From Marinobacter sp. BW6 (lineage in GTDB: Bacteria; Pseudomonadota; Gammaproteobacteria; Pseudomonadales; Oleiphilaceae), in assembly GCF_008107725.1 (NCBI RefSeq), contig NZ_VIRN01000037.1:186001-250000 (forward strand): DNA of 64,000 nt, in the 5' to 3' direction. A model generated the notes under the pieces. It ran no database searches. It was not told the origin of the DNA and saw nothing but the letters and a program-made list of their open reading frames with translations. Positions 22,240-27,484 of the stretch are shown here, piece by piece (position 1 is the first letter of the stretch; the number at the start of each line of letters is the position of its first letter). Both the position numbers and the translations under genes were made by a program.

Positions 22240-23658
22240 TCAGTTCATCAGCTCACGGACATCAACGAAATGGCCTGTTACCGCGGCAGCGGCCGCCATG
22301 GCCGGGCTTACCAGGTGAGTGCGCCCACCAAAGCCCTGCCGACCCTCGAAGTTCCGGTTTGAGGTGGAAGCACAATGCTCACCCTGGCCCAGCTTGTCGG
22401 CGTTCATCGCCAGACACATGGAGCAGCCCGGATCACGCCATTCCAGACCGGCTTCGATAAAGATCTTGTCCAGGCCTTCCTGCTCTGCCTGGATTTTGAC
22501 CAGCCCGGAACCCGGCACTACCATCGCCTGTTTCAGGATCGGCGATACCTTTCGCCCTTTCACCACGGCAGCCGCCTCACGCAGATCCTCGATACGGCTG
22601 TTGGTACATGAGCCAATAAACACCCGGTCCAGCTTGATATCGGTAATCGCCATGTTCGGCTGCAAACCCATGTACTTCAGAGCGCGAACAATGCCCTCAC
22701 GTTTGATGGGATCAGCTTCCTGCTCGGGGTCGGGCACCTTGCCATCGATTCCTGCAACCATCTCCGGTGACGTACCCCAACTAACCTGAGGCTGGATTTC
22801 CGAGCCTTCCAGCTCTACAACCTTATCGAAGACGGCATCGCTATCGCTGTGCAGGGTCCGCCAGTAGTCAACCGCAGCGTCCCACTGCTCACCCTTGGGG
22901 CCGAACGGACGATTGCGAACATATTCGATGGTGGTGTCATCAACTGCCACCATACCAACCCGCGCACCAGCCTCGATGGACATATTGCAGATGGTCATAC
23001 GCCCTTCCATGCTCAAGCCCTGGATGGCTTCGCCGCCAAACTCAATGGCGTGCCCGGTGCCACCGGCAGTCCCGATCTTGCCAATGATGGCCAGCACAAC
23101 ATCCTTACCGGTAACGCCTGGACCGAGCTTGCCGTTCACCTTCACCAGCATGTTTTTCATTTTCTTCTGAACCAGGCACTGGGTCGCGAGCACATGTTCC
23201 ACTTCGCTGGTGCCAATACCGTGAGCGAGGCAGCCAAAGGCACCGTGAGTAGAGGTGTGGGAATCCCCACAAACAATGCTCATGCCCGGCAGCGTCGCGC
23301 CCTGCTCAGGCCCGATCACGTGCACGATGCCCTGGCGTTGATCCTTGATCTTGAACTCAAGAATCCCGAACTCATCGCAGTTCTTGTCCAGTGTTTCCAC
23401 CTGGATCCGGGAAACCGGGTCAACAATGCCTTCAACACCCCGGTCACGGTCCGTGGTGGGAACGTTATGGTCCGGCGTCGCAATATTCGCATCGATGCGC
23501 CAGGGCTTACGCCCAGCCAGACGCAGGCCTTCAAATGCCTGGGGCGATGTCACTTCGTGCAGCAACTGGCGATCAATGTAAATCAGCGCGGAGCCGTCAT
23601 CGCGCTGCTTGACGAGATGATCGTCCCACAATTTGTCGTATAAGGTTTTGCCCGCCAT
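22240..23658 (-). CDS. leuC: 3-isopropylmalate dehydratase large subunit
   Basis: Aconitase-family catalytic subunit of isopropylmalate isomerase. The three [4Fe-4S] ligand cysteines are in GSCTNSR (near residue 348) and in CSMC (near 408 and 411). Other marks are [23 protein letters not shown] (landmark [13 protein letters not shown]) and the C-terminal NRNFEGRQG. Length 472 residues. It is first in the leu unit, with its own promoter candidate and a divergent LysR gene upstream. Confidence 0.97.
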
Positions 23659-23708
23659 GGTTCTCTCTCACTCTCTGGGGGTTTCTGGTTTTCACGTTTG
23701 ATACAGCT

Positions 23709-23738
23709 ATTTTACCGCCTGCGACCGGATAACCTCAA
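23709..23738 (-). promoter_or_regulatory. candidate sigma70 promoter of leuC
   Basis: On the minus strand a TTGAGG -35 (23733-23738) and a TAAAAT -10 (23709-23714) are 18 bases apart, about 50 bases before the leuC ATG. It is the best promoter match in this gap. Confidence 0.45.
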
Positions 23739-23790
23739 TTCATGTTTTTTATCTTTGGCATCCGTTTTGGTTATACTTTGGTGAAGGTCC

Positions 23791-23895
23791 CGGGTTGGGA
23801 GAGCACTTTCAAAACACGCCGACAAGCACATCCATGTGGGCTCGAATCGGGCCATCCCTGGCCCTCTACGGTTTTGAAAGTGCTCTCCCAACCCG
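23791..23895 (-). repeat. structured 55-base-core element, copy E1
   Basis: A perfect 25-bp inverted repeat (23791-23815 with 23871-23895) encloses a 55-base core (23816-23870). Read on the minus strand, the core matches the cores of E2 and E3 (about 40 of 55 positions against E2). It contains the hairpin GGGCCA-GGGA-TGGCCC. The stem sequence is unrelated to the stems of E2 and E3 apart from AAAAC/GTTTT next to the core. Confidence 0.85.
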
Positions 23896-23935
23896 CTCCC
23901 CAGACAATTGAGCAGCCCTCAATGCTGCCCGGGGC

Positions 23936-24042
23936 GCCTGGAGGGCCGAACCTCCCAAAACCGTGGAGCGCCAGGGATGGCGCGACCGAGCCCTACAGGG
24001 ATGTATTTACGGGCGTGTTTTGGGAGGTTTGGCCCTCCAGGC
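23936..24042 (+). repeat. structured 55-base-core element, copy E2
   Basis: Arms 23936-23961 and 24017-24042 pair over 26 bp with a single G-U wobble. The core 23962-24016 is 55 bases and contains GCGCCA-GGGA-TGGCGC and a second small hairpin ACA-GGGA-TGT inside GCCC/GGGC. It points away from E1 and ends 38 bases before the LysR start codon. Confidence 0.85.
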
Positions 24043-24080
24043 ACCCTGCACCCAAGTTCCAGGGCAAAGAGAATCATTCT

Positions 24081-24953
24081 GTGGACACAAACGCATTAAA
24101 AGCTTTTCTGACCATTGTCGACCAGGGCTCCTTTTCAGAAGCCGCGGAAACTCTGCATCTGACGCAGCCGGCCATCTCGAAGCGCCTGGCCGCCCTGGAA
24201 AACCAGCTTGGCACCAGCCTGATCGACCGGAGCCACCGCCAGATTCGCCTGACCGATGCCGGCAGCCGTCTACTGCCACATGCGCGCAGAATCCTGGATG
24301 AAATCCACAATGCCCGAGTGGCGTTGTCGCCGGACTCCGGGCAAGTCGAAGGCGAGCTTCAAATTATCGCCAGCCACCACATAGGCCTGCACCATTTGCC
24401 GAATTGGCTGAGGCGGTTCAAAAGGGAATACCCTCAGGTGTCCATCAACCTTCAGTTCATGGATTCAGACGCCGCATACGAACAGATGCGCAAACGGAAC
24501 GCGGAGTTGGCATTCGTGACACTGAGTGACAGCATGGAACCGAGCTTTAATGTTTTCGCCCAATGGCCGGACCAGATGGTGTTTGTGGCCGGCGCGGAAC
24601 ATCCTCTGGCGTCCCTGGAGCATCCTGCGTTACCAGATCTCGCGGACCACCCCGCCCTGCTTCCGGATACCACCACCGCGACATACCGGGTTGTAAGCCG
24701 ACTGTTCTTGGAAGCGAATCTGCACCTGAATCCACAAATGCCGACCAACTATCTGGAAACCATCAAAATGATGACCAGTGTGGGCCTGGGCTGGAGTGTC
24801 CTGCCCCTGCGCATGATTGACGACAGCCTGAGGGTGCTGGATGTGGGCAAGCCGGTTACTCGGGTGCTCGGTGGGATCGGACTATCCGGGCGGCAGCTCA
24901 GCAACGCGGCCAAAGCCCTGCTCACCATCGTGCAGGAACAAGAAGTCGCCTGA
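24081..24953 (+). CDS. LysR-family transcriptional regulator
   Basis: DNA-binding activator/repressor of 290 residues. The N-terminal winged helix-turn-helix is clear (ALKAFLTIVDQGSFSEAAE, then LTQPAISKRLAALENQLG), followed by an effector-binding domain with IASHHIGLHHLPNWLRRF. The frame is open back to 23742, but that part translates the repeat elements. GTG at 24081 is the natural start, with AAAGAGA about 8 bases before. It is divergent from leuCDB-asd, as a LysR gene is in Pseudomonas, but the target is not shown by sequence. The leader carries elements E1 and E2. Confidence 0.9.
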   Translation: MDTNALKAFLTIVDQGSFSEAAETLHLTQPAISKRLAALENQLGTSLIDRSHRQIRLTDAGSRLLPHARRILDEIHNARVALSPDSGQVEGELQIIASHHIGLHHLPNWLRRFKREYPQVSINLQFMDSDAAYEQMRKRNAELAFVTLSDSMEPSFNVFAQWPDQMVFVAGAEHPLASLEHPALPDLADHPALLPDTTTATYRVVSRLFLEANLHLNPQMPTNYLETIKMMTSVGLGWSVLPLRMIDDSLRVLDVGKPVTRVLGGIGLSGRQLSNAAKALLTIVQEQEVA

Positions 24954-24956
24954 GCT

Positions 24957-25985
24957 TTAACCCTCGCTATGCGCTGGCGGCGGCCTAAGCCCCCGCCAGG
25001 TGACCACGATTGCGACGGCCATGGCGGCAGCACCACCCCAGAAAGCCGCCGAAGTGCTGAAACCATCCACCAGAAAGCCCGACAACCAGGCCCCCAGCGC
25101 ACCGCCAGCGCCGAAGGTAAGACCGCTGTATAGGGCCTGACCCTGACCATGATGGTGTTTGCCAAAAAAGCCCTGAATGTACTGGACGGAGATAGCGTGC
25201 AGCGCACCGTAAGATGCCGCGTGAAGAAGCTGCGCAAACAGCAGAACGGCGACAATATCCGTCAGTTCTGCAATCAGTACCCAACGGATCATAGTGAGCA
25301 TAAGCGCGCCAATTGCAATCTGGCGGACCGTGAAATTACGCGTTAACCGGTGCATCACCAGAAACAGTGCGATCTCAGCAAACACGCCCAGCGACCACAG
25401 CAGGCCAATCGACAGTTTGCTGTACCCATGCTGCTCCAGATGGATACTGAAGAACGTGTAATAGGCCCCGTGCGAAACCTGAAGCAGGAAATTCATCAGA
25501 AAGAACGTCACCACCGCCGGGTGCGTGACAATGGCCTTCAAACTGCCCTTCGGCGCCGTCGGCTTTCGCTCTCCTCGCTCCGCAGGTACCAGAAACGCTG
25601 ATACGGCGATGCCCGCAAATACCGGCAACAACAACCAGGGCAGATTCTGAATCGGTACCAGCTCCAGCAAACCGCCCACCAGCGCTACCGCCCCGATAAA
25701 CCCCACAGAGCCCCAGAGCCGGACCCGGCCGTATTTCTCCTTCTGCTCGCCCAGGGTACGGAGCGTGATTACCTCATAAAGCGGCAGAATTGCATTCCAG
25801 AAAAATGTAAATGCCAGCATTACCAACAGCAGGCCATAAAACCCCGGCTCCATGAATACGCTGGCAAAAAACAGGGACCCCGTAATGGCGCCAAACCGCA
25901 CCAGACGAACCCGCTGGCCGGTTTTGTCCCCTAACCAGCCCCATACGCTTGGAGCAACAATTTTGGTGAGCTGGATCGTCGCCAT
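24957..25985 (-). CDS. MFS transporter (3-phenylpropionate transporter-like), 5' end abnormal
   Basis: About ten hydrophobic segments and the early cytoplasmic loop motif WGWLGDKTGQRVRLVRFG place it in the MFS_1-like/HcaT group; the substrate is unknown. The first ATG (25985) removes helix 1. The same frame continues upstream for 43 codons that read like the missing N-terminus (IYWRLSNLYFWFFALLGGLL) until a TGA at 26115-26117, but contain no ATG, GTG or TTG. Two ATGs at 26122 and 26118 are in the other two frames, so a one-base shift would repair the gene. It may be a frameshifted gene, a sequencing error or a non-standard start. It is convergent with the LysR gene. Confidence 0.8.
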   Translation of the reverse strand: MATIQLTKIVAPSVWGWLGDKTGQRVRLVRFGAITGSLFFASVFMEPGFYGLLLVMLAFTFFWNAILPLYEVITLRTLGEQKEKYGRVRLWGSVGFIGAVALVGGLLELVPIQNLPWLLLPVFAGIAVSAFLVPAERGERKPTAPKGSLKAIVTHPAVVTFFLMNFLLQVSHGAYYTFFSIHLEQHGYSKLSIGLLWSLGVFAEIALFLVMHRLTRNFTVRQIAIGALMLTMIRWVLIAELTDIVAVLLFAQLLHAASYGALHAISVQYIQGFFGKHHHGQGQALYSGLTFGAGGALGAWLSGFLVDGFSTSAAFWGGAAAMAVAIVVTWRGLRPPPAHSEG

Positions 25986-26167
25986 CAGCGTGGCTATCTG
26001 AAGGTAGGAAAAGCCCTGGCCTTCGAGGTAAAGAGACCAGTACGGCAGGAGCCCACCGAGGAGGGCGAAGAACCAGAAATAGAGGTTGGAGAGTCGCCAG
26101 TAGATAACAAGACCTCATTCATAGGTATCAGAGAAGCCGGGTTGTTTATTGACAGTCACTGAGTGTT

Positions 26168-26195
26168 GTCGGATTACGCCTTTGGCTAATCCGAC
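26168..26195. repeat. GTCGGATTA hairpin repeat, copy 2
   Basis: The arms are identical to the copy at 21542 (GTCGGATTA/TAATCCGAC). The 10-base centre CGCCTTTGGC can extend the stem by GCC/GGC. It is upstream of the broken MFS 5' end. Confidence 0.8.
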
Positions 26196-26251
26196 CTACA
26201 GGGCTGCAACCGAACCTTCAGAGCCGAACAGGAGGGCATCGCTAGAGTCTG

Positions 26252-26366
26252 GCTGTTGTGGTGGGGCTTGCTGACCAAAAATGTGAAGCGCCAGGGATGG
26301 CGCGACCAAGCCCTACAAGGACGTATTCACGGGCGTTTTTTGGGCGGTAAGCCCCACCACAACAGC
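26252..26366 (+). repeat. structured 55-base-core element, copy E3
   Basis: Arms 26252-26281 and 26337-26366 pair over 30 positions with one mismatch and two G-U wobbles. The 55-base core (26282-26336) matches E2 at 49 of 55 positions and has the same GCGCCA-GGGA-TGGCGC hairpin. It ends 24 bases beyond the aroC stop, so it could also end aroC transcription (A/T runs flank the core on both strands). Confidence 0.85.
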
Positions 26367-26389
26367 TCCACCAAGGCTGAAAACAAGTA

Positions 26390-27484
26390 TCAGAGCTGAC
26401 CAATCACCGGTGTGGACACAGAAACATCGGCATTCTGCCCACGATGCCGCAGATAATGGTCCATCAACACAATAGCCATCATCGCCTCTGCAATTGGCGT
26501 CGCCCGAATCCCGACACAGGGATCGTGCCGCCCCGTGGTAATCACTTCGCAGGGATCGCCGTTCACATCGATGCTTCGGCCCGGCAACCGCAAACTTGAG
26601 GTGGGCTTCAACGCAATACTGGCAACAATCGGCTGCCCTGACGAAATGCCACCCAACACACCACCCGCATTGTTCGAGAGGAAACCCTCCGGTGTCATTT
26701 CATCCCGGTGCTCTGTGCCCTTCTGATCGACACAATCAAATCCGGCGCCAATCTCGACACCCTTGACGGCATTGATACTCATAAGCGCGTGAGCCAGATC
26801 TGCATCCAGGCGATCAAAGATCGGCTCGCCCAGCCCAGGCGGTACACCGTCAGCAACCACGTTAATCCGAGCACCGATGGAATCACCCTCCTTTCGGAGT
26901 GCATCCATATAGGCTTCCATCTCGGCAACCTTGTCCGCATCCGGGCAGAAAAACGGGTTCTGGTGAACCTGATCCCAGTCCAACTTTTCAGCCTTGATCG
27001 GACCGAGCTGGGACAGGTACCCGCGAATCCGGATGCCCAGGCGTTGCTCAAGGAATTTTCTCGCAACCGCACCGGCGGCAACCCGCATCGCAGTTTCCCG
27101 CGCAGAGGAGCGACCGCCACCCCGATAATCCCGGACGCCGTACTTGTGCATGTAGGTGTAATCGGCGTGAGCCGGTCGGAACTGTTCGGAGATCTTGGAA
27201 TAATCCTTGGAGCGCTGATCGGTGTTCTCGATCAGCAGCCCAATCGGTGTGCCTGTGGTCTTGCCTTCAAAAACACCGGACAGGATTCTTACCTCGTCGG
27301 CTTCGCGGCGCTGGGTCGTATGCCGGGAGGTGCCCGGTTTACGGCGATCCAGATCCCGCTGCATGTCGGCTTCAGACAGCTCAAGCCCTGGGGGACAGCC
27401 ATCAATGATGCAACCCAGCGCAGCCCCGTGACTTTCGCCAAATGAGGTAACCGTAAACAGTTTTCCGAAAGAGTTTCCCGACAT
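26390..27484 (-). CDS. aroC: chorismate synthase
   Basis: Makes chorismate from EPSP using reduced FMN, the last common step to aromatic amino acids and folate. It starts [20 protein letters not shown], a chorismate-synthase signature, and contains [20 protein letters not shown] (20-residue landmark) and [17 protein letters not shown]. Length 364 residues. It lies 37 bases after prmB; prmB-aroC is a common gammaproteobacterial pair, and the MFS gene next to it also occurs in Pseudomonas. Confidence 0.97.

Follow-up and report, generated by a model that had tools for sequence, protein, structure and literature searches.

The CsrB/RsmB RNA (RF00018) is well known as a sponge for CsrA, and one CsrA dimer can bridge two loops. 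A second RNA with loops of a related type, TwoAYGGAY (RF01731), is said to go back to Weinberg et al. 2010. In the extracts by which the cited papers are represented here and below, CsrA binding is proposed for TwoAYGGAY, the outer stem of which is called not well conserved (PMC4333381), and CANGGANG, with A or U before it and U or A after it, is given as the binding site of the Rsm proteins RsmA and RsmE (PMC4353343, PMC6849547). REPIN doublets, a class of dispersed repeats, are inverted in 93% of 430 cases (PMC3116915), and template switching is described as changing both arms of a hairpin jointly (PMC8794818, PMC8604942). All of these systems bear on three hairpin elements, E1, E2 and E3, in a 64,000-nucleotide stretch of Marinobacter sp. 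BW6 (contig NZ_VIRN01000037.1, positions 186,001 to 250,000; this whole stretch is called the window). The three are members of a dispersed repeat family with many copies per genome. The explanation favoured here, with slightly less than even confidence, is that the family is a TwoAYGGAY-like RNA repeat, predicted to bind CsrA, whose arms would be homogenised by template switching together with selection at the RNA level.

Each element has a core of two hairpins with ANGGA loops inside CANGGANG, so that CANGGANG occurs twice in each, and the core is closed by a long stem. The parts of the three elements are as follows, with all loops read from the sequence.

23791..23895, minus strand (sense strand), E1 as a whole, a perfect 25-bp stem and a 55-nucleotide core
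23816..23870, minus strand, core of E1
23853..23860, minus strand, loop of hairpin 1 of E1, CAGGGATG, which fits CANGGANG
23829..23836, minus strand, loop of hairpin 2 of E1, CATGGATG, which also fits CANGGANG
23932..24046, plus strand (sense strand), E2 as a whole, a stem of 26-30 bp and a 55-nucleotide core, head to head with E1
23962..24016, plus strand, core of E2
23972..23979, plus strand, loop of hairpin 1 of E2, CAGGGATG
23996..24003, plus strand, loop of hairpin 2 of E2, CAGGGATG
26252..26366, plus strand, E3 as a whole, a 30-bp stem and a 55-nucleotide core, a single copy in the gap between a major facilitator superfamily (MFS) gene and aroC, antisense to both
26282..26336, plus strand, core of E3, with TwoAYGGAY as top Rfam match (27.8 bits over 26243-26368, cut-off 43)
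26292..26299, plus strand, loop of hairpin 1 of E3, CAGGGATG
26316..26323, plus strand, loop of hairpin 2 of E3, CAAGGACG
23791..24046, no strand, the head-to-head doublet of E1 and E2 in the spacer between leuC and the divergent LysR-type gene, which in relatives is still there, has decayed or is inverted

A preliminary description of this DNA had reported a three-copy element with 55-base cores and self-complementary stems, and recomputation gave the same picture. The cores of E2 and E3 match at 49 of 55 positions, as before, and E1 matches E2 at 39 and E3 at 35. The stem of E1 is Watson-Crick at 25 of 25 pairs, that of E2 has one G-T within the inner 26 pairs and one mismatch (pair 27) when read to 30 bp, and the 30 pairs of E3 include two G-T and one mismatch. 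A repeat search of the window recovered the same arms for all three. Folding z-scores against shuffles were -10.1 for E1, -9.6 for E2 and -7.8 for E3, and for each of them none of 200 shuffles reached so good a fold. The folds support a CsrA-type site, that is, CANGGANG with its GGA in a hairpin loop, in both loops of every element, and one csrA gene was found in the window's genome. Scanning the window at E <= 1 with a covariance model that was partly built from E1-E3 themselves returned the three elements, two weaker readings, of E1 and E2 on their opposite strands, and nothing further.

Further copies in related genomes, which had been put forward as a check on the element, were found. BLAST with E2 against the window's own genome gave 24 rows, made up of 18 hairpin elements, the two arms of E2 itself and four stemless matches. 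With R1, a covariance model of 48 copies, there were 55 matches in 779 kb of two related genomes; 43 of these were elements, 17 in a 0.4-Mb stretch of the window's genome (G000) and 26 in genome G070, and the remaining 12 were weaker opposite-strand readings at the same sites. A separate hairpin finder likewise gave 43 elements, all inside R1 matches. Genome-wide, 150 scored candidates per genome yielded 63, 114 and 109 covariance-model matches, weaker opposite-strand readings included, with at least 35 distinct G000 sites among the matches listed. At the level of the order Pseudomonadales, 72 of the 194 genomes searched, and 41 of the 96 genera, had a match at E <= 1e-6. Carriers confirmed by R1 include, among the matches listed, Marinobacter, Pseudomonas, Halopseudomonas, Halomonas, Stenotrophomonas, Shewanella, Pectobacterium, Samsonia, Idiomarina, Oceanisphaera, Zobellella, Microbulbifer and Alloalcanivorax, and a scan with the core pattern placed the Marinobacter label on 47 of the 80 stretches among its listed matches. 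One plasmid record matched a 63-base query, at 82.8% over 92% of the query (Marinobacter adhaerens NC_017507.1). A literature search by core sequence words and topic found no paper describing the repeat in the extracts it covered, which is weak evidence of absence from print.

The anatomy of the family is constant in plan and variable in sequence. Stems measure 25-40 bp with a mode of 28 (108 elements), cores measure 52-58 nucleotides, and in many copies the base of hairpin 1 has G-A opposite G-A, an arrangement of tandem GAs also reported for TwoAYGGAY (PMC4333381). Core-pattern loci had been selected with an ANGGA pattern, and elements had to show A-N-[GA]-GA twice to be picked up by the finder; loop conservation was therefore taken only from the covariance-model set, the model itself being built from elements with such loops. 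In that set (two stretches), both loops read A-N-G-G-A in 43 of 43 elements and CANGGANG in 42 of 43, and the second loop letter can be any base (129 non-redundant elements). The same 129 copies bear on the earlier claims that the stems share only an A-run/T-run and have turned over completely, both of which went too far, as a weak consensus persists. The most conserved stem pairs are those adjoining the core, where the 5' arm follows a loose C-Y-T-Y-C-C-R-R-R-A-M consensus over 11 pairs, and farther out this arm prefers G (70-74% at -17, -18 and -22; 32-55% at other positions from -12 to -26). The Watson-Crick share is 93% at pairs 17-24, 82% at pairs 25-28 and 39% at pairs 29-32 (84 elements).

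Covariation of the arms is strong. The outer stem of 48 elements is 97.9% paired, with change on both sides at 25 of 26 pairs, and over all structure cells 94.8% are paired versus 32-44% when the partner is slid by 1-3 columns; the counts come from related sequences and a count is not a probability. The mismatches that do occur allow the strands to be told apart, as a selected RNA strand tolerates G-U and not A-C, whereas selection on double-stranded DNA, or mutation alone, predicts equal numbers of the two. G-T stood to A-C at 72:5 in 152 elements, the result of a search by core and closing pair that is blind to the type of stem mismatch (156 core-anchored elements, four of them removed for poor pairing). 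The ratio was 41:4 in 84 non-redundant elements and 82:8 in the 129 non-redundant covariance-model alignments. To go by this excess, selection probably acts on the ANGGA strand, for which RNA is the simplest form.

How the two arms change together was followed at 13 orthologous loci of G000 and G070, with 338 stem pairs. These represent 13 of the 17 elements of the G000 stretch; of the others, one lacks a flank in G070, another is missing from that genome, and the last two have a partner of differing core type or unclear orthology. The 338 pairs contain 47 doubles from one Watson-Crick pair to another (23 transitions and 24 transversions) versus 21 other changes. A stem pair thus changes in 68 of 338 cases, or 20.1%, close to a single base of the 60-bp flanks (20.6%), with divergence at four-fold sites being 29.4%. 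A stepwise model of two-site mutation and selection expects 2-5 doubles at 17-29% neutral divergence, and one added joint-change rate raises the log likelihood by 72-117. A pathway through G-U would yield transitions only and is mismatched to doubles of which half are transversions. Their transition share, 23 of 47, is neutral-like, with 99 transitions and 89 transversions among the 188 changes of well-aligned flanks, and adjacent double changes are slightly above expectation (16 vs 10.5, p 0.02). A second set, from the leuC-LysR locus, gave 34 doubles (21 transitions, 13 transversions) and 18 singles in 12 element comparisons, which came from eight of the ten locus pairs named, the other two giving none; E2 of L029 against L030 had singles only. 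Both sets hold simultaneous changes of the two arms beyond stepwise expectation, changes of the kind that template switching makes. Pairs 12-26 are also asymmetric, with 885 G-C vs 380 C-G and 309 U-A vs 252 A-U, and an excess of G-C and U-A has been attributed to template switching in one direction combined with tolerated G-U (PMC8794818). To judge from these comparisons, both arms are apparently rewritten at once, in the way expected of template switching. The preliminary description had left a choice between selection for pairing and a copying mechanism, and each now has its own line of support, the strand bias for the former and the joint arm changes for the latter.

These figures also invite a purely mutational account, in which template switching would keep the arms of an existing long palindrome identical without any function. 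The similar rates of change in a stem pair and a flank site fit it, as does the neutral-like transition share. However, it predicts no excess of G-T over A-C, where 82:8 was counted, and it leaves unexplained the conservation of the ANGGA loops, the covarying stem of hairpin 1 and the head-to-head order of neighbouring elements. We regard it as improbable.

Neighbours within 600 bp are head to head (minus then plus, with their 5' ends facing) in 39 of 40 cases, the exception being 581 bp apart. The leuC-LysR locus, in different genomes, accounts for 15 of the 39, and about 23 loci are left after collapsing these and two G000/G070 repeats. Relatives vary at the leuC-LysR locus: some have both elements, L034-L038 have the block inverted, L040, L041 and L043 keep a stump of one element, and L046 and L057 have neither. 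Eleven elements differ in presence between G000 and G070; four leave remnants, seven absent alleles also lack neighbouring bases or have them replaced, and a precise empty site was seen at none of the 11. Such remnants and altered neighbours suggest that loss by deletion is, as it seems, common, and the comparison revealed no insertion. An origin of the arms by insertion into a target, or by inverted duplication of one, was left unsupported, no clean empty site being available.

The doublets are equally what might be expected of a selfish miniature mobile element, in which the head-to-head pair would be the mobile unit, a putative enzyme would recognise folded single-stranded DNA or RNA of the ANGGA strand, and pairing would be required for mobility and not by the host. 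Many copies with similar cores and unrelated arms, an inverted order resembling that of REPIN doublets, a gene context without bias and a patchy spread over the order (72 of 194 genomes) would all suit this mode of spread. Against it stand the 0 of 11 precise empty sites and the agents looked for. A Y1 transposase gene (Y1_Tnp, RAYT) was found in 0 of 3 genomes, and RAYT/REPIN identity was rejected on that count. Reverse transcriptase had no match in the window's own genome, whereas G110 had one and G070 had three, of which two passed the cut-off; a resident reverse transcriptase was likewise dismissed as the agent. Moreover, the leuC-LysR elements persist with paired stems in many relatives, which would need selection or copying on site. 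A mobile element without a known enzyme appears somewhat unlikely but keeps real weight as an alternative, and the mutational palindrome carries less.

Several rearrangements were noted in passing. The whole E1-E2 block is inverted in L034-L038 relative to L028-L033 with its head-to-head order kept, and in the inverted group short inverted repeats (GGTGAAGGTC / GACCTTCACC) flank the block. At L039 (G075), E1 and E2 are seemingly fused by a deletion that left parts of both. Another palindromic repeat (GTCGGATTACGCC...GGCTAATCCGACCTAC), at 26168-26199 of the window, often adjoins or separates paired elements in several relatives. In G110, the partner of the relative of the element at G000 C12:1508479 has an extra ~90 nucleotides inside hairpin 2 of its core, a nested second repeat, and a similar sequence interrupts the element at L044, again a second repeat nested in the first. 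The stem finder also picked up a different hairpin repeat, with another core holding GAGCGAAGCGAG, at G000 C12:1512334-1512430 and at L016. A core inversion suspected near 1.517 Mb of G000 C12 by comparison with G070 was dropped, the element fitting the other partner of the doublet.

The gene context was taken from simple longest open reading frame calls. E1 and E2 lie between divergent genes, leuC on the minus strand (a reading of the Pfam aconitase family gene beside E1) and a LysR-type regulator on the plus strand, and E3 lies between genes for an MFS transporter and chorismate synthase, both on the minus strand. Across 46 elements, 9 were convergent, 11 divergent, 12 tandem sense and 14 tandem antisense; background gaps of 120 bp or more along the G000 stretch comprised 19 convergent, 36 divergent and 60 tandem, and no bias in gene orientation was evident among the 46 with these calls. 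As many as 40 of the 46 are intergenic within 90 bp of the nearest predicted gene. A position of this kind would suit a DNA or RNA element of gene ends, such as a bidirectional terminator, a stabiliser of mRNA 3' ends or an RNase III site; the contexts are mixed, however, with E1 and E2 between divergent genes, and simple pattern scans found no terminator-like site at the three elements. Such an identity is thus quite doubtful. As for promoters as well as terminators, nothing convincing emerged from scans of the three elements or of the regions upstream of copies.

The favoured explanation, that of a repeat predicted to bind CsrA, can be put together as follows. If transcribed, the ANGGA strand would fold into two short hairpins, each presenting CANGGANG, with the variable stem of ~28 bp holding both together, and one CsrA dimer could bridge the two loops. 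Transcribed copies would then act as CsrA decoys, in the manner of a sponge, or tether CsrA to the RNA that contains them. The sequence of the stem would be nearly free, replication copying one arm from the other by template switching and so changing both at once, and RNA-level selection would purge most pairs other than G-C, A-U and G-U. The head-to-head doublet would be the probable original unit, with singles arising by deletion of one partner. A broader proposal, that head-to-head repeats throughout the genome are selected as CsrA/RsmA decoys and have their stems rewritten by template switching near the neutral rate, is to be considered unlikely.

A number of observations weigh against the favoured explanation. 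The full site, A/U-CANGGANG-U/A, is present only in hairpin 2 of E1-E3, hairpin 1 having the inner eight. As for the strand bias, 133 of the 156 mismatched cells still contain a G, and A-C (8) is rarer than G-G and G-A taken together (49); conservation of G itself, beside pairing, therefore adds to the bias, and selected single-stranded DNA of the ANGGA strand would give the same result. As for joint change, stepwise evolution fits if true neutral divergence is ~74%, double changes differ among loci (p = 3e-6), as does flank divergence, and the flanks align poorly at 2 of the 13 loci (40-48% mismatches). The pair asymmetry is reversed at pairs 1-11 (458 C-G vs 239 G-C, 403 A-U vs 272 U-A), where the sequence is conserved. 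Finally, orientation to genes looks random, which is odd for a regulatory RNA, and promoters were scarce: 23650-24100 holds only one sigma-70-like site, at 23738-23709 (minus strand), past E1 on the leuC side, and E1 therefore need not sit in the leuC leader; a pattern scan found no such site in 26100-26420, and enrichment of -10/-35 sequences upstream of 128 copies was not clear.

If the broader decoy proposal holds, CsrA activity would be set partly by dozens of dispersed repeats and not only by dedicated small RNAs; copies that bind CsrA would give a function to a class of bacterial repeats and a natural context to TwoAYGGAY. It has long been asked how an RNA stem can change its sequence and yet stay perfectly paired. 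With numerous independent stems in each genome, across many species, and a ratio of 47 doubles to 21 other changes, the answer from template switching becomes directly testable, and the family offers a natural test case for the self-copying of hairpins during DNA replication.

Among known systems, the nearest Rfam family is TwoAYGGAY, of clan CL00106, which also holds CsrB. The preliminary description had implied that no known relative exists and proposed a look in Rfam; that look turned up in TwoAYGGAY the same plan, tandem hairpins with AYGGAY-type loops within an outer stem, and placed E1-E3 below its gathering score. The likeness extends further. RF01731 matches to the elements lie on the ANGGA strand, and the best copy of the window's genome (L016) scores 42.9 bits. 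Where RF01731 matches a genome, it often does so at several sites, and among the matches listed 6 of 8 RF01731 neighbours within 600 bp are minus then plus, with one plus-minus and one plus-plus. In contrast, the loops here are ANGGAY and not AYGGAY, and the gathering score of 43 bits is missed, by E3 with its 27.8, by E1 and E2, which are not listed at E <= 10, and by all 30 elements in seven loci. In the other direction, the covariance model of the present family recovers 2 of 10 loci to which RF01731 had led. Among the aligned RF01731 relatives, the three best (L101-L103) lack the GGA of hairpin 2, and RF01731 may therefore hold more than one kind of element. With a plan alike, a curated cut-off missed and reciprocal recognition that is partial, the family is called TwoAYGGAY-like and, by that cut-off, is no member of RF01731. 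MicroRNA and other Rfam families in the match lists were dismissed as long-stem matches below their own cut-offs.

CsrB/RsmB is akin to the family through the Rfam clan it shares with TwoAYGGAY, but is a single small RNA gene, whereas the present family is scattered over many loci, each with two loops and a long stem that varies; none of the 3 genomes had CsrB above cut-off, RsmX/Y/Z types being outside this search. Like REPINs, the elements form inverted doublets, are extragenic in random context, and would make hairpins in single-stranded DNA or RNA (PMC3116915). Unlike REPINs, which are moved by the RAYT Y1 transposases lacking from all three genomes, they combine conserved loops with variable arms, most arm positions beyond pair 11 being weakly conserved, and the view that this is no ordinary repetitive extragenic palindromic (REP) unit has held. 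With the template-switch hairpins of PMC8794818 they share instantaneous compensatory changes of both arms and the excess of G-C and U-A. Those hairpins, as far as the extract goes, are ribosomal RNA stems and microRNA loci, whereas the present ones are a dispersed family with stems of ~28 bp that change at a near-neutral rate.

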